Assembly (NCBI RefSeq): GCF_002494345.1
Contig: NZ_NXNI01000001.1
Span: 1,736,001 to 1,800,000 of the forward strand
Origin: Natrinema ejinorense
GTDB taxonomy: Archaea; Halobacteriota; Halobacteria; Halobacteriales; Natrialbaceae
Reading direction: 5' to 3'
DNA: 64,000 nucleotides
How positions within the stretch are numbered: the stretch's first letter is position 1; every line of letters begins with the position of its first letter. The notes under the pieces were generated by a model. The model was given only the letters and a program-made list of their open reading frames with translations, did not search any database and was not told the DNA's origin. Of the stretch, positions 23,034 through 46,608 are shown piece after piece. The translations under genes and the position numbers were made by a program.

Positions 23034-23128
23034 TGTTCTGCACCCAGCGAAGACGTAGGCTACTGACTACAGCCGCTATAGTTAGCAGGCGTTTCCGACA
23101 GAATTTGAGCGGATCCCGGCCTGCTATT

Positions 23129-23328
23129 GCTATCCAGCGCAAGCAGGAGACTGCTCGCCACTCGGCGAATTATTCCCCACGTGGGAGACGAGTGGGGTTT
23201 AGACGAGCACCAGTGGCACTTACTCGCTCGTTCGACCATCGAACGAGAGCAACGGCGCTGCGCTCGAGTGGAAGACAACCCCACCGCTGTCGATCGATTG
23301 CTTCCTCGAGAATATGGGCGTTGCAGGG
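23129..23328 (+). repeat. 200-bp degenerate direct repeat, copy 2
   Basis: The partner of 20211-20410 has the same length and the same ending in a GGGCGYTGCAGGGG core. It closes the flavin oxidase/regulator segment on the right. Confidence 0.6.
23313..23327 (-). repeat. Degenerate att-like site (site 2)
   Basis: TATGGGCGTTGCAGG differs from the tRNA-Arg 3'-end copy at two positions (G to T at the first base, C to T in the core). Position and flanking homology to site 1 support it as a decayed att site. Confidence 0.5.
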
Positions 23329-23483
23329 GCGTTATCACCCATATCATGATATCTCCGACGCAAAAACCACTCGTTTGACAGGGTGTATACCTAGGGTGTG
23401 AACTATTCCCTCTTGTGTTCGTTTCACTCCACTTGGACTGAACTATCCGTTCTCTACACGTGCAGACTGAACGGCTTACTAGA

Positions 23484-23918: not shown

Positions 23919-24249
23919 GTTCTATGATCGATCTATCACTACATTATTCGACCACCATCTCTCTCGCCCGTGACATTCGATCTGACTAGCACTCTATCTC
24001 AGCCAGAGTCAGCCAAACCGTAGTAGAACGGTATGTTGTTCTTCTGCACTGAGCGATAATTACAGATACGTAGTTATCATTCAAATAATGTAAAAATCGA
24101 TATATTCAAAAACCGGCGTGCGAGATACAGAGGGTAGAGTCACCAGAACGTTCTGACGGCCAGATGGAATACCGACCGGGACCCATAGGGCATCAAGGGC
24201 AGACCAACATTGAATAGGCCGGATTTCTTAAACGCTTTAGAGAGCTACT
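23919..24249. other. AT-rich intergenic region
   Basis: No gene is seen in these 331 bp. The stretch around 24087-24112 (AATGTAAAAATCGATATATT) could carry promoter elements for the sensory gene that starts at 24250. Confidence 0.4.
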
Positions 24250-25206
24250 ATGGATGATTCGCTCAGTTATGCAGTGATATTGGCTGTAGCTGACGCCGAG
24301 GGTGCCGATCCGACTGATCTCTCGCCCCTCTCCGATGCCATCGACCCTGAGGCCCTTGATCTATTATTATCCAAGAATGAGAGCCAAGTTCGATTCAACT
24401 ATCATGGATATACGGTGACTGTAGATCATCGAGGTGTTGTCAACATCGAATCTGTGAATAGCAAACCATCTCAGGGCCGGAAGTCCGTTGACGCGCACCG
24501 GGTGATGGAAACCGCCCGGGAGGGGATGAGCCTTGTCAGGTCCGATGGAACGTTCGCGTTTGTGAACTCGGCGTTCGCGAACTTGTTCGGATACAATCGC
24601 CACGAGTTACTCGGAGAACATTGGACCGTGTTGTATCACGAGGGGGAGGCGAAGCGGTTAGAAGAAGACATTCTCCCAGCCGTCCGAGAAACCGGGTATT
24701 GGTCGGGTGAGACGGTCCGGCTCACGAAACACGGCGAGCCACGCGTTACGGATCACCGCCTCGCGCTCACCGACGAGGACGTAATTCTCTGCACCGCCAC
24801 CGACATCACACTTGATAGGACCGCATCTGGGTTAGATGCGCGCGATTTTGACGGCATGGTCGACAATATGGAGGAGAGCGCATTCTTCACTCTCGATCAC
24901 GAGGGCTATGTCACCCGATGGAACGAAGAAACAGGGCGCCTCGAAGGATATGAACCGTGCGAGATTCTCGGGGAACACGTATCGAAATTTTTCCCCGACG
25001 AAGACCGGGATCAGGGCCTCCCCGAGCGGCTCCTCGAGACCGCGAAAAACCAAGGTAGGGTGACTGACGAGGGATGGCGGGTCCGGAACGACGGAACTCA
25101 GTTCTGGGCCGATATGACGATGGTTGCGAGTTACGACGACGCGGGGACGATTCGAGGGTTCGGGACGGTGATTAGTGAAACGTCTGAACTATCCGTTAGT
25201 TCGTAA
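24250..25206 (+). CDS. HalOD1-PAS-PAS sensory protein
   Basis: A 318-residue protein. Residues 1-70 (LSYAVILAVADAEGADPTDL; IDPEALDLLL; YHGYTVTVDHRG) match the haloarchaeal HalOD1 output domain. Two PAS domains follow: about 85-190 (AREGMSLVRSDGTFAFVNSA, then LFGYNRHELLGEHW) and about 205-310 (FFTLDHEGYVTRWNEETGR, then LEGYEPCEILGEHV; RNDGTQFWADMTM). No kinase or receiver domain is present. HalOD1 is thought to be an output module, so this would be a one-component sensor, perhaps for redox or light through a PAS cofactor. The receiver-only regulator lies downstream. Confidence 0.85.
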   Translation: MDDSLSYAVILAVADAEGADPTDLSPLSDAIDPEALDLLLSKNESQVRFNYHGYTVTVDHRGVVNIESVNSKPSQGRKSVDAHRVMETAREGMSLVRSDGTFAFVNSAFANLFGYNRHELLGEHWTVLYHEGEAKRLEEDILPAVRETGYWSGETVRLTKHGEPRVTDHRLALTDEDVILCTATDITLDRTASGLDARDFDGMVDNMEESAFFTLDHEGYVTRWNEETGRLEGYEPCEILGEHVSKFFPDEDRDQGLPERLLETAKNQGRVTDEGWRVRNDGTQFWADMTMVASYDDAGTIRGFGTVISETSELSVSS

Positions 25207-25524
25207 ACTGGGAGACATTCCGTGAGGTTCGTCGGGGTACGATCCCTGAACTCACTGGTTCGTGAGAGGGATTCACGGCCAGCCCACATGACGGTTGATT
25301 CGTGACGCATCGTATGGCCGGTGATCACGCGCACTGTATTCATCACTTCAGTATTACCAATAGACGAATGGGTTGTATGAAGTCCGATACCTATCTACTC
25401 TATACTGAACGGCAACTACGTGTGCAGACTGAACGTAGATTGATTCTCCCAGTTAATCAAAACACAGCGAGTTGGTGAAAATGTCAGGAGCATAAGGGCC
25501 GTCGCCTCCTACGCTTCGGTAGAG
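25207..25524. other. Intergenic region with short repeats
   Basis: No gene is seen. GTGCAGACTGAACG at 25422-25435 repeats a sequence at 23460-23473, and CTATACTGAACGGC at about 25411 is similar. These may be shared control sites within the island. Confidence 0.4.
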
Positions 25525-25719
25525 ATGGCTAGTAATAATGAAATACAGAAGGTAGTAGTCGTGTGTGATAACTGTGGAACTGGTCTTACAGCACATTTCG
25601 ACCCTGACGGCGAAATACGGCTAATTTGGACTAGAAGGGGGCCAGCTTGCTCATGTAGAAATGACGAACTTCGTATCATGAGCAACGACAGGACTGTTCT
25701 CGAAGACGTAGACATGTAG
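25525..25719 (+). CDS. Small zinc-ribbon-like protein
   Basis: A 64-residue protein with VVVCDNCGTGLTAHFDPDG and a later PACSCRNDE, i.e. CxxC plus CxC, fitting a minimal zinc ribbon. Its codon use is AT-richer than the core, like the rest of the island. Function unknown. Confidence 0.6.
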   Translation: MASNNEIQKVVVVCDNCGTGLTAHFDPDGEIRLIWTRRGPACSCRNDELRIMSNDRTVLEDVDM

Positions 25720-25966
25720 CAGTTGGGTGAATTAACTCAAAAGAATGTTTGAAAACAATTGTTCTGTGAATCGCCTGAACTGACCGTTATTGGGTTGTTT
25801 TGATAATCAGAGTGATATCTTCCCGGTCTTTATACGTGGCCAGCCCCAGTAGTCTATAGCGAGAGATTTTGCACTGTGCGTCTCCCTTTGCAGAAAGGGA
25901 GTCTGCCGGTGAATGGTCGTGTAACAATCACGGGCGCATCACAGATACCATACTCGCCCATCTACC

Positions 25967-26425
25967 ATGTACGACACTCCTTCCTACCAGTCCTACAGCG
26001 ACGATAAGATCGATATTTTGCTTGTCGAAGATAACCCCGTCGACGTCCGTCTCACTGAAGAGGCATTCAAAACAGCCGAACAAGAGATAGCACTACAGAC
26101 AGTCACCAATGGAGACGACGCTGTGGAATTTTTGCAGCAGTCCTCAGATACCGATCTTCCAGATTTGGTCTTACTGGATCTGAACCTTCCCGGGCGAGAT
26201 GGATGCGATGTCCTCGAAGTAATCCGGGATGATCCCCGGCTCAGACCACTTCCTGTGCTTATGCTCACGAGTTCAGAGGCAGACGAGGATGTTGCGCGGT
26301 GCTATGATGCCCGTGCTAATTCCTATCTGACAAAGCCAACAGATCCTGCTGAGTTTATCTCTCTTGTAGATATTTTTGCACGGTTCTGGGTTGAGAAGGT
26401 ACATCTCCCACCAATTCCGCAATAA
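25967..26425 (+). CDS. Receiver-only response regulator (Rcp1-like)
   Basis: A 152-residue single REC domain: acidic pocket Glu21-Asp22 (ILLVEDNPVDVRLTEEAF), phosphoacceptor Asp71 (LVLLDLNLPGRDG), LMLTSSE and the Lys in YLTKPTD. The 'DNPvD.rL..EAf' pattern is that of Rcp1-type regulators paired with phytochrome-like or hybrid kinases. There is no output domain, so it should act by protein contact or as a phosphate shuttle. A TATA-like CTTTATACGTGG about 25829-25840 lies upstream. Confidence 0.9.
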   Translation: MYDTPSYQSYSDDKIDILLVEDNPVDVRLTEEAFKTAEQEIALQTVTNGDDAVEFLQQSSDTDLPDLVLLDLNLPGRDGCDVLEVIRDDPRLRPLPVLMLTSSEADEDVARCYDARANSYLTKPTDPAEFISLVDIFARFWVEKVHLPPIPQ

Positions 26426-26471
26426 CGTTCACCTTTTACGGATGTCAGACCTGTACTGAGTGATTGACTCA

Positions 26472-26882
26472 TTATTGCAGATCTTCTACACAGATGTAGT
26501 CACCTTCCTCTGCACGAATCCATATCGTTTCAAGTTGCTCGTCAGTCGTATCCGCGGGATAGAGAATACACACATCGGCCGAATTTGCGTCTTCAGTCAC
26601 AACAGCATTCACTTCTATTGGACTCAGCTTTTCAAATCTCGAGTTCATTTTAGAGACTATCGTCTGATCTGTGGAATGTCTCTGCACGGAATAGATGAGA
26701 TCATCCAATAAACAGTTAATCGCTTTCTCGTGTGCTTCTTTCCTACAATGAATGTGAGTCGGGTAAACCGATTGTGCGTCGTAGGCGGCAAATGCACTAG
26801 TGGAGAGTGTATCTTCCTGTTCAAGATAGCTGCGTATTTCCAACAACAATGCATGCATATGTAGGAGTTCTTGTTTTCTCAT
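26472..26882 (-). CDS. UPF0058-family protein
   Basis: A 136-residue protein. MRKQELLHMHALLLEIRSYLEQ at the N-terminus, then YPTHIHCRKEAHEKAINCLLDDL, is the conserved haloarchaeal UPF0058 pattern, in which paired His/Cys residues may bind metal. The second half (about 80-136) is a less conserved acidic extension. Function unknown. Confidence 0.75.
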   Translation of the reverse strand: MRKQELLHMHALLLEIRSYLEQEDTLSTSAFAAYDAQSVYPTHIHCRKEAHEKAINCLLDDLIYSVQRHSTDQTIVSKMNSRFEKLSPIEVNAVVTEDANSADVCILYPADTTDEQLETIWIRAEEGDYICVEDLQ

Positions 26883-27322
26883 GATCTCATATAACGCACT
26901 CTCTCTTCTTAGAGTTTCTTGGTGAAATCTTTGGGTGTAATCATCTGGGTGAAGAATAAAATGTTATATTTAAATCATAATAAATTTTGACGTGTTTTTG
27001 TGAGGTTAGCAGCCACTCTATGACCCGTACTGATCGTTTGTCTTGGAGTTGCGGAGAAGGTGTTCAAACCGTTTCTAGACACCCTCTGTATACCCGTTAT
27101 ACTACTGCTGCCTGCCCTTCCTCTTCGTCGTCCTCGTCATCCTCGTCCTCATCTGTGTCGTCCAGCAGACCCATGAACTCCTACAGGAGCGATGTCAGGA
27201 ATACGATGGGCGCTGCAGGCTCCGGTTCGAGTGTCGAACGAATCGACCTTTGAGGCGTGAGGCGACCGAAATCGGCTGTCTCAAAATGGTGTTTCTGACG
27301 GGGGCTCGTGTGGAGACGACCA
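26883..27322. other. Junction of island segments 2 and 3
   Basis: It begins with a very AT-rich stretch (26930-26995). At 27100-27174 a short minus-strand frame encodes MGLLDD followed by an Asp/Glu run (about 25 aa), too short and simple to call. It ends with att site 3 and a leader of about 100 bp before the integrase pseudogene. Confidence 0.5.
27205..27219 (-). repeat. att-like copy of the tRNA-Arg 3' end (site 3)
   Basis: GATGGGCGCTGCAGG is identical to 36446-36460 in tRNA-Arg. It lies 104 bp upstream of the integrase start, the usual place for an integrase next to its att site. The sequence to its right matches that right of site 1. Confidence 0.75.
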
Positions 27323-28330
27323 ATGAGTCTCGAACCAATCAACCCCGACCACGCACTCGAACTGTACTTAGCCGACCGTGAAAACAGTGTAACCCAGGCC
27401 ACGCTCTACTCCCACCGATCACGATTGGGCCACTTCATCCGTTGTACAACGGGGAAGGCATCGAGAGCCTGAACAAACTGAGCGGACGGCAGCTCCACAA
27501 GTTCCGCATCTGGCGACGCATCGAAGGCGATCTGGCTCCGGCTACCGAGAAGACCCAGATGGACACGTTACGGGTGTTCATCAAATGGCTGGAGTCGATA
27601 GACGGTATCGAACAGGATTTGCACACGAAAGTGCTGTCCCCAACGCTGACCGGCAACTAATATTAGGAGTGTAATGCTAGACACAGAACGAGCCAATCAT
27701 ATTCTGGCATATCTACGGAAATATGAGTACGCGTCACGGCCCCACGTCACGTTGGAACTGATGTGGCACACAATGCTGCGAGTCGGTGCAGTCCACGCGC
27801 TGGACTGTGCTGACTACGATCCCGCGAACCAAGCACTCGAAGTAATCCATCGACCAGAGACTGGAACGCCATTGAAGAATGGTGAGACAGGACAGCGGTT
27901 TGTCGCACTCTCGGAAGATGTCTGTGAGGTACTGGACAACTGGATCGAGCACCAACGCCCGGCGGTCACCGACGAACACGGCCGCGAACCACTCGTGACA
28001 ACGCTGGAAGGGCGCGCTCATACGACGACACTTCGTGGAGACTACTATAGATACACTCGCCCGTGTATACCGACAATGGAGTGTCCCCACGGACGTGATA
28101 TCGATGAGTGTTCAGCGGCTGACTACGACGGTGCTTCTGAGTGACCTTCCTCTGTGAGTCCTCATGCTCTTCGACGGGGTGGCATCACACACGCGCTCTC
28201 AGAAGATTGGCCAATGAAGGCGGTTGGGGACCGGGCGAACGTCTCAGAAACCGTACTCTCGATGCACTATGATTCGCGTTCAGAGGAAGAAAAAATGGAA
28301 CAGCGGAGGGATTACTTAGACGATCTCTGA
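27323..28330 (+). pseudogene. Tyrosine recombinase/integrase, broken by frameshifts
   Basis: The start MSLEPINPDHALELYLADR is intact. The frame then shifts near 27440, before GIESLNKLSGRQLHKFRIW, again near 27655, before VMLDTERANHILAYLRKYEY, and again near 28140, before the catalytic tail. Conserved residues survive: LRVGAVHALD (first Arg), PHALRRGGITHALS (HxxR box) and SETVLSMHYD (Tyr nucleophile). Joined, the pieces make about 335 residues, normal for haloarchaeal XerC/D-type integrases of integrative elements. It sits 104 bp from att site 3, so it was the integrase of segment 3; as written it cannot be made as one protein. Confidence 0.85.
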
Positions 28331-28335
28331 CGCAG

Positions 28336-28875
28336 TCAGGACTCGATATACTCTATTGCATCCCAGATGCTGAGTACTCGAATTCGCCCCTCATAATACG
28401 TATTGTCGATCACACCAGAAATCGCCCGCTCAGCGTTCCGGTCGTCAATCAAAATCCCGACGGACTCATGCACTGTCGAACCAAGAAGCATCACGGCAGC
28501 CGCTGGAAGTTCTGAATCAGTCTTCCTCAGCTCGTCTGGATCTGTCTGCTCAAACTTCGCCAGTCGCTCATGAACCCGATCCATGATCTCCCCAGCACGC
28601 AGCCCGTTGTGGACCCGAACCCCTGGCTGCACGGTATCGATGAGATTGATCCACGCTGTTGTGTCCGCTCGGTCAACCCAATCGATACTAATGTATCCGC
28701 GTTGTTCCGCGAGTTCCTCCACGATACCTGGTGTTAGATACAGATCACTTCCCTCCTCTCTGACGTACTGTATGAATGTTTGATACGAGGAGGATTCTGT
28801 CCCCCCGATGGTTCGAAGAAAGCTTGTATCGAGAATAAGGGCTGTCGGGAACGGAGACGGATGCTCTTCACTCAT
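28336..28875 (-). CDS. PIN-domain protein, candidate toxin
   Basis: A 179-residue protein with the acidic constellation of PIN nucleases: Asp16 (ALILDTSFL), Glu53/54 (GIVEELAEQ), Asp120 (KTDSELPAAAVML) and Asp144/145 (ILIDDRNAERAI). PIN nucleases cleave RNA. Its start overlaps the end of the HTH gene by 8 nt, so they are translated as a coupled pair. Inference: toxin of an HTH/PIN toxin-antitoxin module. Longer than VapC (about 130 aa), so an untypical subtype. Confidence 0.75.
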   Translation of the reverse strand: MSEEHPSPFPTALILDTSFLRTIGGTESSSYQTFIQYVREEGSDLYLTPGIVEELAEQRGYISIDWVDRADTTAWINLIDTVQPGVRVHNGLRAGEIMDRVHERLAKFEQTDPDELRKTDSELPAAAVMLLGSTVHESVGILIDDRNAERAISGVIDNTYYEGRIRVLSIWDAIEYIES

Positions 28876-29497
28876 CGGCTCGCTGGTACGGTCCCTGTTT
28901 GATTGCGCGGTCGTGAACGTCCACCTCGAACGTGATGTCGCTGAGGGTTGGGTCGTGGTCTTTCACCAGAGCAATGATCCGCTCAATTGCTTGGGTGACC
29001 GCGATGGCCTCCACAGCAGGGACACTGAGTTCATCCGCGACGCCACGACGCGTTGTCTCACCCTGTAGATAAGTGAGCGTCGCCATGACCGCGGGTGCGA
29101 GTGCCGCTTTCCCGTGGCGGTCAACGAAGAGTTCGAGATCGTCGTCAACGCTGGTCGCCCCATAGACGGAGATGATGGCAGGTCCCAGTTCGAGGGTTGT
29201 TTCGTCTGTCCAGTCTCCACTCACGGGGTCGGCACGCCAAAGTGAAGAGCCATCTTCGTACTCATCCAATTCCTCTGCGACACCCAACTCGGCCAGTGTA
29301 TTCGCGTACTTGTAGGCAGTACTCTTGGAGAAGCCTTGACGTTCACGGGCTGCCTTGACCGTTGTCGGGGAGTTGATCAAGAGATCTGTGTAGAGCCGCG
29401 CGAGATCAGGAGTCCCCAGCAGGTCTTGGATGACGAAAAACCGCTGTGCAGTGTGTCCCGCGTCTGGTGGTTGGTTTGGGGTTGGAGCGTTCGACAT
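28868..29497 (-). CDS. HTH DNA-binding protein, candidate antitoxin/autorepressor
   Basis: A 209-residue protein. Residues about 30-80 (DLARLYTDLLINSPTTVKAA, then RERQGFSKSTAYKYANTLAELGVAEE) form a winged helix. The remainder is helical with no catalytic motif and resembles haloarchaeal HTH proteins that precede PIN genes. A perfect 7-bp inverted repeat sits between its TATA-like box and start codon, as expected for autoregulation. It overlaps the PIN gene by 8 nt. Confidence 0.75.
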   Translation of the reverse strand: MSNAPTPNQPPDAGHTAQRFFVIQDLLGTPDLARLYTDLLINSPTTVKAARERQGFSKSTAYKYANTLAELGVAEELDEYEDGSSLWRADPVSGDWTDETTLELGPAIISVYGATSVDDDLELFVDRHGKAALAPAVMATLTYLQGETTRRGVADELSVPAVEAIAVTQAIERIIALVKDHDPTLSDITFEVDVHDRAIKQGPYQRADE

Positions 29498-29500
29498 AGT

Positions 29501-29529
29501 CCATAGTACGCGAACTATGGTCTAAAGTG
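29501..29529 (-). promoter_or_regulatory. Palindromic operator and TATA-like box of the HTH/PIN pair
   Basis: CCATAGT (29501-29507), six bases, then ACTATGG (29514-29520): a perfect inverted repeat ending 3 bp from the start codon. On the minus strand CACTTTAGA (29521-29529) lies about 28 nt upstream of the ATG, in TATA position. A bound dimer would block transcription initiation. Confidence 0.65.
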
Positions 29530-29766
29530 TTCCGGGAATTTCGAACCAGCCAACTACGGCTCTCACACCAATTGGAGTCGGCTGAACACTCCTCGTACGA
29601 TATTCTTTCGACTGAAACAGTCGTTAAATAGGTATGCGAACTGACCACTAAGAGTTCTCTCGGGTATGACTCATATCTATAGTACCGTGCTGAATAGAGA
29701 ATGCGTTTACAGCTTGCTAACGAGGTTAGAATTATCCGGCACGTTGTCTCGGTGGTCCAACTCGTG

Positions 29767-30126
29767 TCATTCCGAGTAAGAGGAATAGGGTTGGTCGGAG
29801 AGCATCTCGGCAAGTTCAGCCAGCAGTTCCTCGGCCGAATCATGGCCACGGTATCGGACGTGGTGCGTACGAGTATCGTACTCGGCCCACCCGTTCGATT
29901 CGAGCTTTGGGAGGTGGCTGTGCGTTAGTTCGAGAGAGACTTGTTCGTGATCCATCTCGGGGACACGCTGGGCAATATGTGTGGCCAAATCCTCCACGGT
30001 GGCTGTATTCTTTGACTCGATATTCTCGAAATAGCGGATGACTTCCCGGCGGAGATTGTGACACAATGTATTCAGCAATTGATTCGTCCTCGGGGCCTTC
30101 TCCGGGTAACACTCTGTTTGGTCCAT
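29767..30126 (-). CDS. DUF7344-like HTH protein
   Basis: A 119-residue protein starting MDQTECYPEKAPRTNQLLN; the 36 in-frame upstream residues are not acidic and were dropped. LCHNLRREVIRYFENIES ... TATVEDLATHIAQRVP ... LELTHSHLPKLESNGWAEYD ... VRYRGHD is the haloarchaeal short winged-helix pattern (DUF7344 type). It is probably a small transcription regulator; the adjacent kinase gene is a possible target. Confidence 0.7.
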   Translation of the reverse strand: MDQTECYPEKAPRTNQLLNTLCHNLRREVIRYFENIESKNTATVEDLATHIAQRVPEMDHEQVSLELTHSHLPKLESNGWAEYDTRTHHVRYRGHDSAEELLAELAEMLSDQPYSSYSE

Positions 30127-30305
30127 GGTGGCTGTTAACATGGGAGAGAGTAATAATAGTTGTTCCCAACGCTTCGAAATCGGCAGTACCAATTGAGAAC
30201 AATCTGCTGGATACAACCTCTGGACTGACTGCAACCAGAGGAAATATGCCAGATACTGAAGTTTTCAACAGAGCCTGGAAAGAGAAGACTGAAACTGCTT
30301 GTCGG

Positions 30306-31970
30306 CTAGAGTTGCGTAGGATCGTGTATCGGGAGTTTCACGACGAATACTGACCCGGTCGGTTCGTTGTCTTCGACCCAAACATCACCGTCAAACTGGT
30401 CCATTAGTGTGTAGACAAGATAGAGTCCAATTCCGGAACCAGGGCTATCAACCCCTTTCTCACCTTTCCCAAAAATATGCTCTTTCTGTTCGTCTGGAAT
30501 TCCCGGCCCATTATCAGCAACCCGTATTTGGACAGAGTTTCCATTAAGGCACCCAGTGACGGTGATTTCTGGTACTGCTTTGTCGTTGTGTCGAACGGCG
30601 TTCCCCAATAGGTTCCTGAACACTGACGACAGCATTTCATTCGCCTGCACAGTGACTTGTGGGAACCCGCTGACGATCTCGAAGTGCGCATCGAAATGTG
30701 TTTCTTGGACTGTGGTGAGTTCCGCCTCTATTGTGCTACGTAAGTTAACTGGTTTCAATTTTACAGTACTATCGCCTGTAAGAGATTCGACGAAAACGCG
30801 TGCAGTATCAGTCAACTCAACCACATGGCTAGAACTCTGAAGGACATGTTCGAGTGCTGCTTCACCGTCTTCGTCCACGTGATCTCGCAAGGTTTCTGCC
30901 CATCCGAGAACCACGGCCATATCGTTCCGGATATCGTGACGGACGACCCGATTTAATGCTTCAAGCTGTTCGGTTTTCTGTTCAAGTTGCTTGCGATAGG
31001 TCTCCCTATCCGTAACATCAGTGATGGTCACCAGTCGTCCAGTTTCTATTTCTCCCGACAAGAATGAGGTTGTGGTGACCTCGTAATACCGTGTCTCTCC
31101 ATTTTCTGTAACGGGTACAACGCCTGGTTCTGAGATGTGGTCTGCGAGCGTAGAGCTGATGTCGTCAATCGAGTCTCCAATTGCGTCGGTAAGTGCCGGA
31201 AAAATTGCTTCTGCAGCTTGGTTGTAGTCTCGAACTCGCTTCGATTGGTCAAGGTAGATCGTTGGGTCAGTTGCCCCACCAGTTAGCCGGATTGCCTCGA
31301 ACCGGTCGAAGTACACGAACAGTGTGCCAACAGCGAACACCGCCACACCAGGTGGCTCATACATGAGAGGAAGTAGTGTTTCTACTTGGCTGCTCAGAAT
31401 CGTAGCGAGTGCTGGGACACCCGTAATTCCAAACAGAATAGCGAGTGGGCGGCTATCTGTCCCGGTATGGTACAGCCGCTCAGCGAGCATGAAGAACCCG
31501 ACCATAATGACCGAGTATGAAAGTCCAAGAACAACCCAGTACAATAACTGATGATTGATTGCAAGATGCGGGAACGGCTCTGTCGTCCACTCAGTCGTGA
31601 AGTAGAGGTTGTGCAGCGGGTTCGTGATCTTGAGTACGATGAAGAAGAGAAAAACAGCTAGTGCTGGGTAGAGAAATGGCATGTCTTGTACTGATCGTCC
31701 GGTATACTCCACACAAAAGCATACCCATGCACCGACCGCGACGAACGCGGAGATGAATCCGATAGTGTACAGCGCGACTTTGCTTGCCGTCGTTGGTGCA
31801 AGCAAGTAGCCAAGATATCCACCACACCACAGTGCGGCGGAGACGAAAAAGACGATGAGTGCGTTCCGTGTTCCAGAATGTTGGATTGTCCGTGCGCGTG
31901 GAATACTAGCAAGACAAGCGACTCCAGAGAGACCAAAGAGTACGACATACACAAGAAGACTGAGTTCCAT
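30306..31970 (-). CDS. Membrane sensor histidine kinase with 7TM N-terminus
   Basis: A 554-residue protein. Residues 1-225 hold seven hydrophobic helices of the 'histidine kinase N-terminal 7TM' type. A PAS-like region (about 235-325) includes TRYYEVTTTSF and TITDVTDRETYRKQLEQK. The phosphoacceptor is His345 (NRVVRHDIRNDM), and the ATPase domain has FRNLLGNAVRHND, VADNGPGIP and GSGIGLYLVYTL. No receiver is fused. It is divergent from the soluble PAS kinase 177 bp away. The signal is unknown; a membrane-embedded ligand is likely. Confidence 0.9.
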   Translation of the reverse strand: MELSLLVYVVLFGLSGVACLASIPRARTIQHSGTRNALIVFFVSAALWCGGYLGYLLAPTTASKVALYTIGFISAFVAVGAWVCFCVEYTGRSVQDMPFLYPALAVFLFFIVLKITNPLHNLYFTTEWTTEPFPHLAINHQLLYWVVLGLSYSVIMVGFFMLAERLYHTGTDSRPLAILFGITGVPALATILSSQVETLLPLMYEPPGVAVFAVGTLFVYFDRFEAIRLTGGATDPTIYLDQSKRVRDYNQAAEAIFPALTDAIGDSIDDISSTLADHISEPGVVPVTENGETRYYEVTTTSFLSGEIETGRLVTITDVTDRETYRKQLEQKTEQLEALNRVVRHDIRNDMAVVLGWAETLRDHVDEDGEAALEHVLQSSSHVVELTDTARVFVESLTGDSTVKLKPVNLRSTIEAELTTVQETHFDAHFEIVSGFPQVTVQANEMLSSVFRNLLGNAVRHNDKAVPEITVTGCLNGNSVQIRVADNGPGIPDEQKEHIFGKGEKGVDSPGSGIGLYLVYTLMDQFDGDVWVEDNEPTGSVFVVKLPIHDPTQL

Positions 31971-32147
31971 ATCTGTTATGAGTATTTGCTAGGTGTCTGT
32001 TAGTGGTTTTGATAGCCGTTCTCTGGGTCCTGTGTTTATCCGGACACGACCTCTTCATTGATGCTGGTATCAGAATCAAGAATATGTGATTCCGGTGTAG
32101 TTCACGGAAGGTTATTCGTTCTCGGGAACGAAGTAACTACCAACTAA

Positions 32148-33146
32148 ATGACAGACATCTCAACACAGGCCGCCGTGGGAAAGAGGGCTATGGCCCTTAT
32201 ACAGAATTTTCCGAACGGCGTCCTCGTTCTCTTCGACGACGACTTGCGATATCGGGTTGTCGGTCCCGATATACTCCCGTTCTCGAATACAGAGGCGACC
32301 AAATTACTCGGACAGTCCATTCATGAACTGTTTCCAGAACACACTGTCAGTCGTCTCCAACCGAAGATGCGAGCGACAGTTCAGGGCGAATCATGCTCCT
32401 TCGACGTTGAGTACGGTGACCACGTCCACCACATCGAAACGAAGCCCGTAGAGATCGACGACGACGCGTACGGTGTTCTTGTCACACAGGATGTGACTCA
32501 GGAACGCGAGACCGCAACTGCGTTGCAGCAACAGAATGAACGCCTCGATCAGTTTGCGAGCATGATCTCACACGACCTGCGAAACCCACTTTTTATCGCT
32601 ACCGGACACTTAGAACTGTATCAGGAAACTGGTGACACCGATCATCTGAGACAAGTCGAAGAGACACTCTCCCGCCTTGATGAACTCACAAAAGATCTCT
32701 TGGCGCTTACCCAGTCGAACGACTCGAATCCCACCTCCGAGACAGTCGCGCTTAATATAGTTGCACATAACGCGTGGGAGATGATCGATACCCGCGATGC
32801 AACCCTAGACGTCTCGGAGTTCCAGATTCAGGCAGACCACGGACAACTGCAAGCACTCTTCGAAAATCTGTTCCGGAACGCAATCGGCCACGGCGGTAAC
32901 GATGTCACGATTCGAATCGACCCCATTGACGACGGCTTCTACGTCGAAGACACAGGGTCAGGAATTCCTAAAGAGAAGCGCGAGAATATTTTCGAGCACG
33001 GGTTTTCAACAGGATACGGCGGCAACGGTGTCGGGCTCACCATCGTCAGTCGCATTGCTAATCATCATGGCTGGTCGATTGAGCTGAGCGAGGAGGCGTC
33101 CGGCGGCGCACGCTTCGATTTCACCGGTGTCGAACTCGCTGAGTAA
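32148..33146 (+). CDS. Soluble PAS-domain histidine kinase
   Basis: A 332-residue protein. The PAS domain (about 15-120) reads FPNGVLVLFDDDLRYRVVGP and LVTQDVTQERE. His142 is in SMISHDLRNPLF, and the HATPase domain has FENLFRNAIGHGG, VEDTGSGIPKEKR and GYGGNGVGLTIVSRIA. There are no membrane segments, so it is cytoplasmic. The REC-PAS gene ends 18 bp beyond it in the opposite direction, so the two may form a signalling pair. Confidence 0.9.
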   Translation: MTDISTQAAVGKRAMALIQNFPNGVLVLFDDDLRYRVVGPDILPFSNTEATKLLGQSIHELFPEHTVSRLQPKMRATVQGESCSFDVEYGDHVHHIETKPVEIDDDAYGVLVTQDVTQERETATALQQQNERLDQFASMISHDLRNPLFIATGHLELYQETGDTDHLRQVEETLSRLDELTKDLLALTQSNDSNPTSETVALNIVAHNAWEMIDTRDATLDVSEFQIQADHGQLQALFENLFRNAIGHGGNDVTIRIDPIDDGFYVEDTGSGIPKEKRENIFEHGFSTGYGGNGVGLTIVSRIANHHGWSIELSEEASGGARFDFTGVELAE

Positions 33147-33163
33147 CTGTTACGCGGGTGCCG

Positions 33164-33937
33164 TTAGTGCGCCACCTCTTGAACAGACCCAACGATCCGG
33201 ACAACAGCTCCGTCGTCGTCAAAGATTGGTTTGCTTTGTCCACGAACCCACCGCAGCCCCCGCTCCGGATGTATCACGCGATATTCGATCTCGTCCGGTT
33301 CCCCATTCGATAGTTTGTGCATTGATTCCCGCGCTTTTTCGCGGTCATTCTCGTGAATCTGATCGAGGAACATCTCTGGATTTTTCTCAAGTGCCTCGGC
33401 TGGAACCCCCCAAAGATCTTCGAACGAGGAATTGATGAAGAGTAACTCTCTCCAATCGGCAGTAAAACTGAACAGGATGTCATCCGAGTTCTCCGCGAGT
33501 TCCGAGAAGCACTGTTCTGCTTTTCGGGTCGATTCCTGTGCATTGTAGCTGGCAACGACGTTTTTGATTCGATTGGCGAGGATTGCGTACTGGCTAGTTC
33601 CGATTTCCTTCTGAAGATAGTCGGTAACACCAGCGGAGATAGCCTCACTTGCAACATCCTCGCTCCCCTTCCCCGTATACAGAATAAATGGGATACGAGG
33701 GTGTGTTTCTCGGAGTGTTGTGAGAAAATCAATGCCTGTCTGTCCTGGCATATCGTAGTCCGAGACGATACAGTGGAAATCCCCCGCCGCGAACTTCTCT
33801 AGACCCTCGGTCACGTTTGTCGCCGATTCGACGGCAAAGCGATCATCTTCTCGATGAAGAAACGTCGCTGTTAGTTCTGCCAGACTCGGTTCATCATCAA
33901 CATGGAGAACACGAATTTCGGGCGGAAGAGAATCCAT
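33164..33937 (-). CDS. REC-PAS signalling protein
   Basis: A 257-residue protein. The receiver domain (1-120) has Asp14-Asp15 (LHVDDEPSLAELT), phosphoacceptor Asp60 (CIVSDYDMPGQTG) and LYTGKGSEDVASEAI. A PAS domain follows (about 145-255: LFSFTADWRELLFINSSFED; YRVIHPERGLRWVRG). There is no kinase or DNA-binding domain. The start MDSLPPEIRV was chosen because the upstream 62 residues are not conserved-looking. It is convergent with the PAS kinase, a plausible phosphodonor. Confidence 0.88.
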   Translation of the reverse strand: MDSLPPEIRVLHVDDEPSLAELTATFLHREDDRFAVESATNVTEGLEKFAAGDFHCIVSDYDMPGQTGIDFLTTLRETHPRIPFILYTGKGSEDVASEAISAGVTDYLQKEIGTSQYAILANRIKNVVASYNAQESTRKAEQCFSELAENSDDILFSFTADWRELLFINSSFEDLWGVPAEALEKNPEMFLDQIHENDREKARESMHKLSNGEPDEIEYRVIHPERGLRWVRGQSKPIFDDDGAVVRIVGSVQEVAH

Positions 33938-34200
33938 TATGCAACGACAAGTTGCTGGACCAATATAATCACGTAGGGTATGTGTTCTGATACACTGTGA
34001 ATGACTAGGTGACTGAAAACTAAAGGTATCTGGCTCTGTTGAGGTTCTATTCTTCAGATGTACTTTAGCGAGGAATGCGTGTACGCTACACGTGCGTATG
34101 GAACGCTTAGGTATCTCCGTCATAAGGAGAGTGACCTGTTCTGGACCGTATTCGGGCGACGATACATTTGGAGAGCCCTAAAAGTAGAACCACTGGGTCG

Positions 34201-34636
34201 TTAGGCACGAGTTCGAGCGCGGTCTGGCGCGTCGGCCTTCCCGTTCGCGTATGCGTTGTAGGCGGAGAGCGCTGCAACGACTAACCCTGCGATGAGTGTG
34301 CCCGTCGCCAGTGAGTCGCTTCCCATCTCGATGACGTTTGGTGAGAGGAGCGCCCACAGCCCGCAGGACAGCCAACGAGGCAACGCCAACGCTTGCTAGC
34401 CGGTCTTTCGACAACCGGTAGAAGTTGTAGCCAGCGAGCAAGAAGATCGCCGTCCCGACCATGGTATTGTTCCAGACGGCTGTCTCTGTGGCTTCGAAGA
34501 CAAACGGCGAAGCGACGAGCCACAGCCCGACCAGCGCAACGAGCGCGCTCAGCCACTGTATTACGTCCGTGTTCAAGGTATCACGACTGGTTCCGGATTC
34601 GGTATTTGTTCGTCTGTTAGTCGGTGTGCCACTCAT
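34201..34636 (-). pseudogene. SPW-repeat membrane protein, frameshifted
   Basis: The frame starting at 34636 gives IQWLSALVALVGLWLVASP ... AVWNNTMVGTAIFLLAGYNF, the first SPW repeat. After SLAVL (near 34370) it leaves the coding frame. The next frame continues with GLWALLSPNVIEMGSDSL ... GTLIAGLVVAALSAYNAYANGK to a stop at 34201, the second repeat. One missing base explains both halves. Full-length it would be a four-helix membrane protein. An IS5-type element abuts its start, so promoter loss may have preceded decay; a sequencing error is the alternative. Confidence 0.75.
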
Positions 34637-34669
34637 AGGCTGTGTTGAATCGCCATACAGCGGTGGATT

Positions 34670-35506
34670 TCACTGTTTGACAGCCCGCTTGATGTTATAG
34701 ACGACACACATCAGGGTAATTTCACGGAACTCTCGATACCAGGTACGCGCTCGCACGGCGTAGCCGAGCGAGCGCTTGATGGCGGAGTTCACGGTTTCAG
34801 TCATTGATCGCTGAGCGTACCGATCTTCGTCAATACGAGCGTTGTGAGCGTGATCGTAGGGAGCGAAGATCCGGTGTTTGATCAGCGGGCGAATGTCGAG
34901 TTTGCGGAGCTGGTCGCGGAGCGCTTGCTTATCGTAGCCCTTGTCAGCGGCAAGGGATCGCAGATCGCCCGCGTTCCGGCGGGCGATCTGCTCGGCGAGG
35001 TCTGCGTCGCTTCCTTCTAACGTCGTCGAGCAGTGAAGATCGAGAACAGCTTGCGTTGCTGTATCGACGAGTTTTGTAACTTTGAGCGTTTGAACGCGGT
35101 AATTGGTTCGGTGGCAGTAGTGGCGGCTCGCACGATCACGTTCGTAGAATGTTGCGTCGATAGCAGCGTGTTCAGAGGGGTTGTGCAACTGCGCCGACTG
35201 GTGCAGTAGCACTCGACAGACACTCATTTCGATCCGATCAAACGCCTTACACAGCGTAGATGGAGCGGGGAGATCGGCCACGTCAAGGCCGATATCCCCT
35301 GTTATTTGCGGCATTTCCTTCAACAGATCGATCGTCATCCGGTAGGACGTATCGAGGTAAATCCGGAGGCAATGCAGCGAAATGAGGGCATAGTCGGCGA
35401 ATCCGCCGCCACCAGTCGGGGCGGCGGATTCGCCTCGTTCACCCGTAACTCTTTGTGCAATCGAGACGCAACGCTCGGTGAAGCGGGAGATTTGTGTCAT
35501 GGACAA
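34670..35506 (-). CDS. IS5-family transposase
   Basis: A 278-residue DDE transposase. The first Asp is in HAAIDATFYERDRASRHY, the second in SLAADKGYDKQALRDQL, and the Glu region is DRYAQRSMTETVNSAIKR. YALISLHCLRIYLDTSYR and MTIDLLKEMP at the N-terminus are typical of haloarchaeal IS5 proteins. It is full length and uninterrupted, so it may be active. A perfect 14-bp inverted repeat lies inside its early coding region (35397-35410 and 35420-35433). Confidence 0.9.
   Translation of the reverse strand: MSMTQISRFTERCVSIAQRVTGERGESAAPTGGGGFADYALISLHCLRIYLDTSYRMTIDLLKEMPQITGDIGLDVADLPAPSTLCKAFDRIEMSVCRVLLHQSAQLHNPSEHAAIDATFYERDRASRHYCHRTNYRVQTLKVTKLVDTATQAVLDLHCSTTLEGSDADLAEQIARRNAGDLRSLAADKGYDKQALRDQLRKLDIRPLIKHRIFAPYDHAHNARIDEDRYAQRSMTETVNSAIKRSLGYAVRARTWYREFREITLMCVVYNIKRAVKQ
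35397..35433. repeat. Perfect 14-bp inverted repeat inside the transposase gene
   Basis: GCGAATCCGCCGCC, nine bases, then GGCGGCGGATTCGC. In the mRNA this gives a very stable hairpin about 75 nt after the start codon, which could limit translation of the transposase. Confidence 0.7.
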
Positions 35507-35535
35507 CCAAATTTTCCCGCTTCAACTCCTTCGAT

Positions 35536-35976
35536 TTACTGACCTTCCCCGACGCCATCTAGTGATTCAACGCAGCCATTGAGAGTGATCGAGAGGGAGT
35601 AAGATGCCGGATACTTGAACTCGTAGGACGTGTATCTGTCGCCCCCCAATTCGACTGTCTCCTCGTAGATCACCTCTGAACGGACAGACACTTCGATTCT
35701 GACTGACGTGGGCTCCTGATTATCGACGAGCAGATATACCCAATGCTCGCCGTCACCCGCCCCGAACTCCATCGCACTCACCGGGGTTGCCAGTGACTCT
35801 TCCTGAGAGACATCACAATCTAACTCGTCGTACCCCGTCAAATTACCTGCTCGGTCAGCCTCTCTCACTACCGTTGCCGGGCTACCGATGATTGGAATAT
35901 CATGACGAGAAACGCACCCAGCACAGGACGCGACACTACCGATAGCACACGCCCTGAGGAGGGTTCGCCGGTCCAT
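35536..35976 (-). CDS. Secreted lipoprotein, unknown function
   Basis: A 146-residue protein starting MDRRTLLRACAIGSVASCAGCVS: twin arginine, hydrophobic stretch and a lipobox ending at Cys, so a Tat lipoprotein anchored outside the membrane. The mature part is an all-beta domain (EHWVYLLVDNQEPTSVRIEV ... VELGGDRYTSYEFKYPASY). The longer start at 36015 would add 13 residues before the twin arginines. It lies between the IS and the right end of the island. Confidence 0.75.
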   Translation of the reverse strand: MDRRTLLRACAIGSVASCAGCVSRHDIPIIGSPATVVREADRAGNLTGYDELDCDVSQEESLATPVSAMEFGAGDGEHWVYLLVDNQEPTSVRIEVSVRSEVIYEETVELGGDRYTSYEFKYPASYSLSITLNGCVESLDGVGEGQ

Positions 35977-36015
35977 GCCGAATAGTGTGAAGGTGACTAC
36001 TATATGCTTTATCAC

Positions 36016-36448
36016 AACTATTCAATTTATAGATACTTCGTTCAATTCGCACGTTTACTAAGCGGATTGTTCGCCAGTTCGGCGTAAAACAACGAAGGTA
36101 TCGTGCTGACCTCATGCTCTGTATTCAGCACGGCTTCTGTAATCTATCACCGACTGAGGGTTTCAACAAGGCTCTCTATTTCTTTTCTTCAGTAGCCTAC
36201 CAGCAGTCCGACGACCAACCACCGCGGGCCATATCCCTGACCTGCGAATCCAACAATGTTATTGAAAGTCATTGCCGCGTCGACAAGAATGATAATCTTG
36301 CCGCGTTTTGTATTACTCGAATCGACATGCGGCGACAAGGGCGACCCGATACAACTTGCGCTCTGGCATCATCAGAATGATATGTGTTTAAATAACCCCC
36401 ATGCCGTACTGCGCTTTCTTCTGGATTTGGAGAAAGCGACTGAAGGAT
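36016..36448. other. Right end of the island, no gene seen
   Basis: These AT-richer 433 bp lead into the tRNA gene. I find no codon-biased frame and no obvious similarity to the 200-bp repeats seen at sites 1 and 2. Confidence 0.5.
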
Positions 36449-36460
36449 GGGCGCTGCAGG
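36446..36460 (-). repeat. att core at the tRNA-Arg 3' end (site 4)
   Basis: GATGGGCGCTGCAGG: the last 12 bases are the 3' end of the tRNA on the minus strand. Identical copies at 20395 and 27205 and a degenerate one at 23313 mark earlier or nested insertions. Confidence 0.75.
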
Positions 36461-36522
36461 ATTTGAACCCGCGGCAGCTTGGTCCGAAGCCAAGTACTCT
36501 GTCCAGGCTGAGCTAAGCGCCC
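36449..36522 (-). tRNA. tRNA-Arg(TCG)
   Basis: 74 nt, read on the minus strand. The acceptor arms GGGCGCT/AGCGCCC pair; D-stem GCTC/GAGT; anticodon arm CTTGG-CTTCGGA-CCAAG gives anticodon TCG; T arm GCGGG-TTCAAAT-CCTGC. No intron and no encoded CCA. It remains intact because the inserted element restored its 3' end. Confidence 0.95.
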
Positions 36523-36671
36523 GCATCGCGTTATTCCGGGCGGGTCCGTATAAGTCACTCGATTTGCACCGAATGAGACAGGGACCGACACACCCCCTCT
36601 CGAGGAGTTTTCAGCCGGTGACAATCGGCTCCGGGGGTCTTTAGGTTGGGGCGCCACGGACGATGTGGGCC

Positions 36672-41941: not shown

Positions 41942-42793
41942 TCAGGCTCCCGTCGACGGCCGCACCGGACGGCAGCGCTTGTGACTCGTCCGCTCGGACC
42001 ACGTCTCGAGTCGCTCGATTAGTTTCACGTCGACGCCGGCCCGTTCGGCGACGACTGCCGCATCGACGCCCTCGTCGATTCTGCAACGAAGGATTCGATC
42101 GACGGTTTCGGGGTCGACATCGAGTTCCGTCGCCGGCGATTCGCCCGGGTGAAGCGGCGACCCCGACGTCTCGACGGTCAACTCCTCGGGGATCCCGACG
42201 GCTCGAGCGAGCGCCTCGACTTCGGTTCGGTAGAGGTCGCCGAACAGGAGGCAGTCGGCACCCGTCTCGCCGTGTTTCGTGACCGAGCCGAGAAGCGACT
42301 GCGTGCGGTTGACCGTTCCCACGACGAGCGCGTTCGTCGTGTTCGCGACGTAGTACGCACAGGCCATCCGAAGCCGTGACAGCGCGTTGTTCGTCGCGAC
42401 CAGGTCGTCGGCCGGTCCGTCGGAGCCACCGACCGTCTCCTGAAACGCGGCCAAGACCGGCTGGAGTTGCATGCGCCTGTGTTCGATGCCAAGCGCCGTC
42501 GCGATCGCCTCCGCGTTTCGGGACACCGCCTCGTGACTCAGAAACGCCGGCATCACGAGACCCGTTACGCGATCCTGTCCGACAGCCTCGACTGCGAACG
42601 TCGCTGCCAACGCCGTCTCGACGCCGCCGTCGAGGCTCACGACCAGACGGTCCGCGCCGGCATCGGCGACCCGTTCCTCGAGGAACCGGGGGAGTCGCTC
42701 CCGGAGCCGTGCCAGCGCGTCGTCGGTGGTCGCGAGTCCGTCCGAACTGCGGGGGAGATCGGCGAGGGGCGCGTCGGAATCGGCCATCGTCAT
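41942..42793 (-). CDS. NadE-family protein with degraded active-site motifs
   Basis: A 283-residue protein of the NAD synthetase fold. The PP-loop, usually SGGxDS, reads LVVSLDGGVETALAATF, so both serines and the aspartate are replaced (Asp, Glu, Thr). The later GNRSE...TKYGD motif reads GTVNRTQSLLGSVTKHGET. Overall family order (LYRTEV; GSPLHPGESPATELD; LDVDPETVDRIL) is kept. It is probably a non-canonical paralogue rather than the cell's main NAD synthetase, or a pseudoenzyme. No partner gene is adjacent. Confidence 0.8.
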   Translation of the reverse strand: MTMADSDAPLADLPRSSDGLATTDDALARLRERLPRFLEERVADAGADRLVVSLDGGVETALAATFAVEAVGQDRVTGLVMPAFLSHEAVSRNAEAIATALGIEHRRMQLQPVLAAFQETVGGSDGPADDLVATNNALSRLRMACAYYVANTTNALVVGTVNRTQSLLGSVTKHGETGADCLLFGDLYRTEVEALARAVGIPEELTVETSGSPLHPGESPATELDVDPETVDRILRCRIDEGVDAAVVAERAGVDVKLIERLETWSERTSHKRCRPVRPSTGA

Positions 42794-43321
42794 CGGACTG
42801 GCGAGGCGACGACCCCTCGAGCGACGGTCCTCCGTTGGACGCCGGGACGGTCACAGCGATCTCCCGGCCAGAGGCCGGAGAACGGACGGTCGACGGCTAT
42901 ATCGTGGAGTCGATAGCTCATCGTTCACTCGAGGGAGGCCGGTCACGCGATATAACAGTTTCTGACCAAATGATTAGCCAATTGCCGAGGATTGGTGGAC
43001 TATACTACAATATATATCCGGAAAAGTATTGTAACATCCAAAATATTCGGCCACAAAAAAAAAAGATGAACGAACTCGACGCGGGCCGGGTCGATTCCGA
43101 GACGGAATCGTCCCGCGGTGTCAATCGGTGTTCGTCCCGCTCGATATTCACTCCGGCGTGCCGACCGGCGTCCCTACCGGACGCGATCTCGTGCCGCGAG
43201 CGACGGTCTGGCGGGGGATTCGCACCAACCGCCTGTGGTACCCCTCGAATCGCTCGATCGCCGCTGGCTCGGGCGGTTCGCGAGACGAAAGGCCCTTAAG
43301 TACCAGTCGTCTACAATGAGA
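42794..43321. other. Intergenic region upstream of the SRP RNA
   Basis: No convincing gene is seen. An AT-rich stretch at 42950-43070 ends in ten consecutive A (43055-43064), which on the minus strand would be a T-run terminator, but no minus-strand gene precedes it. The last 40 bp are the SRP RNA promoter. Confidence 0.5.
43286..43302 (+). promoter_or_regulatory. Promoter (BRE/TATA) of the SRP RNA
   Basis: CTTAAGTA at 43295-43302 lies about 24 nt upstream of the predicted RNA 5' end, preceded by the purine-rich CGAAAGG expected of a BRE. Confidence 0.6.
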
Positions 43322-45100: not shown

Positions 45101-45850
45101 ATGGACGTCTTCGAGGCACTTCGGGCGGAGTCGGGGGTCGTCGCCGTCGTCGGTGCGGGCGGGAAGAAGACGACGCTCTACACGCTGGCTGAGCGGACGA
45201 GGGGCGATTCGGCTCGTCGAGCGGTCGTGACGGCGACGGTCCGGATCCCCATCTTCGATCGCCACGTCGAGGCGGTCGTCGTGACCGACGACCCGGTTAC
45301 AGCCCTCGCGCAAACGGACACGTGGCCAGTCGGCGTCGTCCCGGAGCGAGAGCGCGAGGACCGGTACGTGGGATACGACCCCGCGATCATCGACGATCTC
45401 GCGGCGGCCGACGCCGCTGATCTCGTCCTCGTCAAAGCCGACGGTGCGCGGACGCGGGAGTTCAAAGCGCCCGACGACGACGAACCCCAACTTCCCCAGC
45501 GGGTCGACACCGTGGTCCCGATCGCGAGCGTCCACGCCGTCGGGAAGCCGCTCTCGACCGAGTACGTCCACCGACCGGAGCGGGTGGCAGCGATCACCGG
45601 ACTCGAACTCGGCGATCCGGTCCGACCAGCGGACGTGGTTCGTGTGCTCGCGAGCGAGCGTGGCGGGCTGAACGGCGTTCCCGACGGGGCGACGGTCGTC
45701 CCGCTGCTCAACAAGGTGGACGATCCCGACCGACGAGCGATCGCCGAGGAGATCGCGGCGGGGGTACTCGAGCGAGCGCCGCGCGTCACGCGAGTCGTCC
45801 TGACGCGGATGATCGCCGACGAACCGGTCGTCGACGTACTCGAGAGATAG
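45101..45850 (+). CDS. yqeC: YqeC-family selenium/molybdenum cofactor protein
   Basis: A 249-residue P-loop protein: VVAVVGAGGKKTTLYTLAER at the N-terminus, KADGARTREFKAP, VDTVVPIASVHAVGKPLS and LLNKVDDP. YqeC is linked to maturation of selenium-dependent molybdenum hydroxylases. The convergent neighbour is mobA, supporting a molybdenum-cofactor context, though no Mo hydroxylase is seen nearby. Confidence 0.8.
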   Translation: MDVFEALRAESGVVAVVGAGGKKTTLYTLAERTRGDSARRAVVTATVRIPIFDRHVEAVVVTDDPVTALAQTDTWPVGVVPEREREDRYVGYDPAIIDDLAAADAADLVLVKADGARTREFKAPDDDEPQLPQRVDTVVPIASVHAVGKPLSTEYVHRPERVAAITGLELGDPVRPADVVRVLASERGGLNGVPDGATVVPLLNKVDDPDRRAIAEEIAAGVLERAPRVTRVVLTRMIADEPVVDVLER

Positions 45851-45963: not shown

Positions 45964-46608
45964 TCACTCATCACCGAGTCGATCGATTGCCGCCTCGAGC
46001 TCCGTGCGGGTGTTGACGTTCTCGAACGTCTCGAGGGCCGCATACTCGCGAATTTCGTCCTCGTCGACGACGACGTAGTCGAGTTCCAGCAGGGGTTCGA
46101 CGATCCGTCGCTCGTCGCGCTCGAGAGCGCGCTCGCAGGCGGCGAGCATCGGCTCGACGCTATAGACGGCCTGGGTCGTCTGGAACCACTGGTCGTCGAG
46201 CCGGGGCACCGCGGCCTCGTGGTCGGCCGCCCGATCGAAGAGATGGGCGGCGAGGTCGGGATCGACGAAGGGCATATCGCAAGCGACGACGAACGCGTCC
46301 GCTCCGCCGGCTGCTCGAAGCCCCGTCGTGATACCCGCCATGGGTCCGCGATCGGGAATCGGGTCGACCGCAAACGACGCGTCCGGTTCGGGGTTCCCCT
46401 CCAGGGCGTCTCGGATCGCTGGCACCTGCTCTTCCCGACAGTTGACGACGAGGTCGTCGACGACGGGCTCGATCCGGTCGACGACGCGGCGGATCATCGG
46501 CGTCCCGGCGAGGTGGGCGACGGCTTTGTCCGCCTCGCCGAAGCGAGTCGAGTAGCCACCCGCGAGGACGATAGCCGTTCGCTCGGTTCGACCGGTCTCG
46601 AGGGTCAT
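45964..46608 (-). CDS. mobA: Molybdenum cofactor guanylyltransferase (MobA)
   Basis: A 214-residue nucleotidyltransferase. IVLAGGYSTRFGEADKAV is the GTP-binding signature; DRGPMAGITTGLRAAGGAD and VVACDMPFVDPDL supply the metal-binding aspartate. It adds GMP to Mo-molybdopterin. The start at 46608 was taken because the upstream 45 residues are basic and out of character. It is convergent with yqeC. Confidence 0.88.
   Translation of the reverse strand: MTLETGRTERTAIVLAGGYSTRFGEADKAVAHLAGTPMIRRVVDRIEPVVDDLVVNCREEQVPAIRDALEGNPEPDASFAVDPIPDRGPMAGITTGLRAAGGADAFVVACDMPFVDPDLAAHLFDRAADHEAAVPRLDDQWFQTTQAVYSVEPMLAACERALERDERRIVEPLLELDYVVVDEDEIREYAALETFENVNTRTELEAAIDRLGDE

Follow-up and report, generated by a model that had tools for sequence, protein, structure and literature searches.

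NAD synthetase (NadE) is essential in many organisms and is widely conserved. Here its residues are numbered by the B. subtilis NadE chain, aligned to the protein under study. In curated NadE annotation, S46-S51, T157, E162, K186 and T208 are the ATP/Mg positions, and R137, K170, D177, H257 and K258 the NaAD-binding residues. The closest described proteins are the archaeal NH3-dependent NadEs, such as P. horikoshii PH0182 (2e18) and M. jannaschii MJ1352. In the NadE literature, Mg is placed at the ATP pyrophosphate fingerprint, the ATP site is covered when the P2 loop closes and the NaAD site is located at the dimer interface (excerpts of PMC6946656); judging by their titles, the structures 5f23, 6c8q and 3hmq are of NadE with NAD+. 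In Salmonella NadE, a single substitution within the SGGXDST motif, S48N, makes the ammonia Km about 70 times higher (excerpt of PMC3376133). Elsewhere, a dead paralogue of trypanosomatid deoxyhypusine synthase raises the activity of its partner 3000-fold (excerpt of PMC3663545), and PII is a dissociable regulatory subunit of bacterial NadE2Gln, so that the output of NadE is set by a partner and by NAD feedback (excerpt of PMC7196632). Neither a NadE pseudoenzyme nor an archaeal NAD regulator appears in the titles and abstract openings of the best-ranked open-licence full-text matches, and the strings 'nad synth' and 'nad+ synth' are absent from the haloarchaeal annotation review PMC8305020.

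Against these systems we set a gene found in a 64,000-nucleotide stretch of the Natrinema ejinorense genome (the window; contig NZ_NXNI01000001.1), which codes for a NadE paralogue with rewritten catalytic residues, termed NadE* below (Table 1). The earlier note, made from the letters of the window, had called it a NAD synthetase homologue, and the full-length reading frame, the profile matches and the predicted fold all bear this out. Residues 33-276 match PF02540 with 165.8 bits (cut-off 21), which places the protein in the NAD synthase superfamily. It also passes the cut-off of TIGR00552 nadE (138.4 bits versus 63.65), so automatic pipelines can label it a NAD(+) synthase; PRK13980, the NCBIfam NAD+ synthase equivalog, gives 200.5 bits, below its cut-off of 255, and the LarE sulfur transferase model TIGR00268 only 22.1 bits against a cut-off of 150. 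An AlphaFold2 model built from nine sequences (pLDDT 82, pTM 0.83) has P. horikoshii 2e18 as its best structural match (Z 29.1, 248 residues, rmsd 2.3); the best 38 matches are NAD or NMN synthetases, LarE following with Z 16.0. The predicted fold is thus an intact NadE fold, with a poor prediction for the P2-loop counterpart (about 209-218). By codon usage NadE* is an ordinary coding gene. The "core codon bias" ascribed to it earlier is better described as only fair: on home-made gene calls its GC3 is 0.81 (window range 0.67-0.92) and its per-codon score exceeds that of 7 of the 30 window genes longer than 150 aa.

Table 1. Coordinates of the features discussed. Plain positions are those of the window; positions preceded by an L number are those of other loci.
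Feature	Position	Strand	Remarks
NadE* gene, NAD synthetase paralogue with rewritten catalytic residues	41942..42793	minus	283 aa, ATG start
N-terminal motif LPRxxxGLAT, characteristic of NadE*	42728..42757	minus	R15 in 37/39, L20 in 39/39, A21 in 37/39
Rewritten PP-loop D55-G-G-V-E-T60 replacing SGGxDS	42614..42631	minus	position 46 D in 39/39, position 50 D in 0/39
Second motif N162-R-T-Q165 ... H-G-E176	42266..42310	minus	E162 to Q, D173 to E; K173 (=K170) kept
R189 at the NadE K186 position	42227..42229	minus	K in 48/48 canonical, 0/39 NadE*
H271-K272-R273 (=H257-K258-R259), retained	41975..41983	minus	39/39 NadE*
Short upstream ORF, TGA overlapping the NadE* ATG	42790..42921	minus	43 codons + stop
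TATA-like TTATAT, 34 nt upstream of the upstream-ORF ATG	42950..42955	minus	alignment of nine upstream regions
YqeC (TIGR03172)	45101-45850
MobA-like protein	45964-46608
PF03444 winged-helix regulators	L085:5221-5739, L068:4083-4622, L103:8673-9203

The loop that the earlier note had read as LDGGVET does read so, both in the ORF and in the alignment to B. subtilis NadE: it runs S53-L-D-G-G-V-E-T60, with S46 replaced by D55, D50 by E59 and S51 by T60, so that DGGVET stands where a functional NAD(+) synthase has its SGGxDS PP-loop. The alteration of the Glu and Asp of the second motif was likewise seen correctly, the equivalents of E162 and D173 being Q165 (NRTQ) and E176 (HGE). The rewriting extends further than had been claimed: K186 is replaced by Arg, and the P2 loop is changed too (T208 to G, D220 to P). 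A functional synthase would have E162 and K186, its Mg and ATP contacts; the window protein has Q and R.

These changes are shared by a whole group of proteins. At position 46, all 39 distinct NadE* sequences have D and all 48 canonical ones S, which argues that the rewritten loop did not arise by chance. Position 45 is L in 39/39, whereas position 48 is G in just 13. The expectation that LDGGVET would be conserved in relatives therefore holds for its invariant L-D-G and not for the exact string, which varies. Position 50 is E in 31, G in four, A in three and V in one; position 51 is S in 19 and T in another 19 of the 39; position 162 is D in 18, Q in 11, E in five, R in four and A in one; D173 is retained in five; and position 186 is R in 31, with other residues in eight sequences and K in none. 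Sixty columns are at least 90% conserved among the 48 canonical sequences, a set that excludes L085 as well as L043, L091 and L100 (these three being placed apart, two of them with S at 48) and in which G48 would be less than fully conserved if they were added. Of these columns, 35 are kept (the same residue in at least 90% of NadE*), 10 are partly kept and 15 are lost (another residue commonest), the lost ones including S46, G48, D50, S51, E162, D173, K186 and several P2-loop columns. With catalytic positions lost across the entire clade, the earlier suggestion of impaired adenylation gains ground, and the residue patterns make a loss of catalysis in NadE* well supported. As a separate observation, the NadE variants L043, L091 and L100 lie within stop-to-stop frames of about 580 aa, and L043 and L091 have an SGS-type loop.

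The annotated NaAD site shows a different pattern. R137, K170, D177, H257 and K258 are unchanged in 39/39 NadE*, as they would be in a NadE, and N133, R139, Y144 and R259 are likewise kept in all 39. The pocket region is not untouched, because D173, F167, G174 and P180, which belong to the second motif or follow it, are also altered. NadE* has gained conserved residues of its own as well: the LPRxxxGLAT positions are variable in canonical NadE, and T164, R92, E95, D129 and W265 are newly conserved.

When the genome collection was scanned with patterns whose reach is limited to close relatives, seven loci came up, every one of them haloarchaeal. NadE* is carried by Natrinema salsiterrestre, N. 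thermotolerans, N. mahii, Salinadaptatus halalkaliphilus, Halopiger goleimassiliensis and archaeon HArc-gm2, and the seventh locus (L043, YIM A00010) is canonical-like rather than NadE*. In the window's family, NadE* occurs at 54% identity or above in 15 of 125 genomes, besides a remnant in genome G048. Class-wide its distribution is patchy, with 36 of 391 genomes at E 1e-62 or better, a count that may miss very divergent versions, since all 36 matches were read but only part of the weaker ones; the next match (G231, 1.9e-61) is canonical. In a maximum-likelihood tree of 92 rows, from which the G048 remnant (L023, also excluded from the column counts) and the duplicates L003, L091b and L100b were left out, the 39 haloarchaeal NadE* form one clade nested among canonical haloarchaeal NadEs (ultrafast bootstrap 100, SH-aLRT 98). 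This nesting suggests that NadE* was most likely born from a working NadE by duplication. The next branches outside the clade are L085 and then four canonical sequences of another family (L089, L094, L096, L098). L085 (L085:5870-6733) is an intermediate NadE whose loop reads LRGDVDS and whose second motif reads TRTD, and which has E in place of K186; its end branch is long (0.95) and is flagged as unsure by the tree tool.

Across 17 hand-picked close pairs of NadE* the dN/dS ratio runs from 0.07 to 0.48 (median 0.25), as against 0.10-0.30 in 10 canonical pairs. Together with the long reading frame kept throughout the clade of 39, these low ratios agree with the earlier view of a real, full-length protein, and NadE* is under purifying selection, the product neither of an error nor of decay. 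The highest ratio, 0.48, was obtained when the window sequence was paired with G060, its nearest relative, hinting at looser constraint there. The remnant in G048 (L081, L023) is a broken NadE* of 48% identity, with an unreadable PP-loop region and 97.7 bits to PF02540; that genome carries three high-scoring NadE hits beside it.

The earlier note had suggested looking for a second canonical nadE. The window genome (4,476,324 bases, 3 contigs, completeness 100) has two further full-length ones with normal motifs, one of 264 aa (L001; SGGIDS, GNRSE, YGDGA) and one of 291 aa (L002; SGGLDS, ANRSE, YGDGG); this being so, NadE* is not the sole nadE of its genome, as the refutation named in that note would require, and should not be needed for NAD synthesis. 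Elsewhere canonical NadE was judged by PF02540 score rather than by reading the sequence: each of the 38 other genomes with NadE* that were examined has a hit of at least 233.8 bits, as also do G146 (the L085 genome) and G048, whereas NadE* reaches at most 182.3.

The region in front of the gene has a recurrent layout. The TTATAT element is a probable promoter, judging from the aligned upstream regions, and in the window it precedes the short ORF that runs into NadE*. Defined as an ATG 24-38 nt downstream of a TATA-like element, 13-45 codons and a TGA overlapping the start, this arrangement is found in 23/39 NadE* and 2/48 canonical genes, a comparison that is not an independent test, as the criteria were set after viewing the NadE* regions and the 39 sequences are related. 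The exceptions include L061, L106 and L101-L104. Conservation does not extend to the upstream peptide (pN/pS 0.6-1.1 where measurable), and hence the position and coupling of the ORF may matter, rather than its product. The layout suggests translation of the upstream ORF coupled to that of NadE*, from a nearly leaderless transcript.

NadE* is a solitary gene in the window: the gene downstream of it is convergent, and the next calls upstream include none on its strand. Neighbour lists are approximate throughout, as the home-made codon-based caller overlooks some genes, the NadE of L081 and that of L106 among them. The neighbours differ between lineages and none is common to most. More telling than the other neighbours is a gene for a PF03444 winged-helix protein. 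Six of the 28 long-flank loci, counting the G048 remnant, have it within 5 kb of NadE*, and by whole-genome coordinates 7/41 genomes do. It is 50 bp downstream of NadE* in L101-L103, adjoins the NadE of L085 and is divergent, within 0.6 kb, in 4/4 canonical sister loci (L089, L094, L096, L098), compared with none of the 27 remaining NadE loci outside the NadE* group. It is absent from 22 of the 28 long-flank loci, a few of them cut by contig ends, and from the neighbourhood of the window NadE*, in whose genome the only copy is a distant one (39%). Presence alone was rejected as a measure of linkage, being too common (219/391 genomes at 1e-45), and proximity only was used; this proximity could also reflect a single ancestral arrangement that a few lineages have retained. 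In genus g36, which we guess to be Haloarcula, all 15 genomes have a 5'-deoxyadenosine-deaminase-like gene close to NadE*, and in G076 and G077 such a gene is 2-3 kb away. We rejected it as a general partner, since it is found in only 26/41 genomes (E 1e-120 or better), is absent from the window's and lies at a distance elsewhere. Urease-accessory-like neighbours were seen by eye at the NadE* loci L042, L076 and L080, one narrow group, and at the canonical NadE of L043.

Membership in the selenium-dependent molybdenum hydroxylase pathway is another role that the neighbourhood might suggest: in the window, NadE* has yqeC and a mobA-like gene nearby and, in genus g36, a maturation set for such hydroxylases (YqeC, MocA-like, SelD, YqeB; L078:9428-15623). 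The YqeC profile, however, matches 273/391 genomes and yet is unmatched in 11 checked carriers of NadE* (G246, G328, G228, G334, G211, G169, G157, G296, G358, G011 and G107), and we reject this link as highly improbable. Two further features of the window may be recorded here. A 231-aa ORF at 40481-41176 matches the CDC48 N-terminal domain (PF02359, 84.8 bits) but no ATPase domain; its second half looks unrelated by eye, and it is perhaps a disrupted remnant. The stretch from about 23000 to 36600 has three short genes in about 13.5 kb by the home-made codon-usage caller and is possibly foreign or degraded.

Taken together, these observations lead us to propose the following scenario. NadE* would have had a single origin, by duplication of a catalytically intact haloarchaeal NadE. 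MgATP binding and adenylation would then have been lost via S46D, D50E/G/A/V and the changes at E162, K186 and the P2 loop, and the fold would have been kept along with the residues that hold the dinucleotide NaAD at the dimer interface, where NAD can sit too. The protein has the marks of a pseudoenzyme: its catalytic residues are lost next to an active paralogue (present by score outside the window genome), and the dN/dS values of the 17 pairs point to purifying selection. We see an even chance that it is a NadE pseudoenzyme which no longer uses MgATP, keeps the dinucleotide pocket at the dimer interface and, in response to NAD/NaAD, partners active NadE or a regulator. Probably NadE* is a regulator or sensor and not an enzyme. 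It would tune NAD production in one of two ways: paired with a canonical NadE as its non-catalytic subunit, or working with a neighbouring winged-helix regulator and sensing the ligand for it. The predicted fold, the clade, the residues lost and kept, the low dN/dS, the presence of canonical NadE beside NadE* and the neighbour linkage in some lineages are observed here; the regulatory role, the partner, the binding of NaAD or NAD and the absence of ATP-dependent activity are inferred. A fuller version, that NadE* senses NAD or NaAD, controls haloarchaeal NAD production via a NadE:NadE* dimer or a PF03444 regulator and is expressed through a short leaderless coupling ORF, we advance tentatively and with some doubt.

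The same residues invite other readings. NadE* might be an altered enzyme, in which the new D55 and its neighbours, in place of the MgATP site, would serve a different reaction with a dinucleotide or nucleotide as substrate. Such an enzyme would account for a loop conserved in a new form, with D at 46 and L at 45 without exception, and for the newly conserved T164, R92, E95, D129 and W265; it would also have a precedent in the Francisella NadE homologue that switched substrate to become an NMN synthetase (excerpt of PMC3376133; 3fiu, Z 26.1). Yet the other old ATP-site positions examined, apart from D55 and G56, vary (50, 162, 186), no neighbour is common to most lineages and the deaminase-like gene is seen in two groups only, and we regard an altered enzyme as unlikely. 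The variation at 50, 162 and 186 likewise disfavours a new ATP ligase. Invariant NaAD residues coupled with drift at E162, K186 and D50 speak for a pseudoenzyme or regulator that binds a ligand, more than for an ATP ligase with a changed substrate; among the options that the earlier note had left side by side (pseudoenzyme, altered-substrate ligase, regulator), it is the ligase that loses ground.

Less likely still, NadE* might be a working NAD synthetase, perhaps slow or of low affinity, as the intact predicted fold and NaAD residues, the TIGR00552 score and the conservative nature of D50E, K186R and D173E in the window protein would allow. Against this stand the invariance of S46D in the clade, G, A or V at position 50 in 8/39, Q, R or A at 162 in 16/39 and a residue other than R at 186 in 8/39, besides the steep cost of S48N alone in the Salmonella enzyme. 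That NadE* is a decaying duplicate without a role appears yet more doubtful. The patchy distribution (36/391), the broken remnant in G048 (L023/L081) and the ratio of 0.48 for the window sequence would fit such decay, but a long frame in 39 distinct sequences, newly invariant residues and a median dN/dS near that of canonical NadE do not. If the fuller version given above, with NadE* as a NAD or NaAD sensor, were true, an archaeal NAD control system would have been built from the last enzyme of the pathway itself. A stable, separately evolving copy, seemingly without ATP use but with a dinucleotide site, would indicate how archaea might sense or tune NAD.

In comparison with known systems, NadE* has whole-length homology, the fold and the annotated NaAD residues in common with the archaeal NH3-dependent NadEs; it differs from them in the rewritten PP-loop Ser and Asp, E162, K186 and P2 loop, and in the added LPRxxxGLAT. 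The nearest branches of the tree, the canonical sister group and L085, share the PF03444 neighbour with some NadE*; unlike NadE*, the four sister sequences keep SGGLDS and NRSE, and L085, with its changed loop and second motif, is a partial intermediate. PII, although a regulator of a NAD synthetase, is not a NadE homologue, and its target is the glutamine-dependent enzyme. The likeness to trypanosomatid deoxyhypusine synthase is one of analogy, in that an inactive paralogue of a multimeric enzyme stands beside an active one; the families are unrelated, and for NadE* a heteromer and activation are only proposed. Finally, the Francisella NMN synthetase (3fiu) is, like NadE*, a NadE homologue with a changed role, but it is an active enzyme (PMC3376133, as excerpted).
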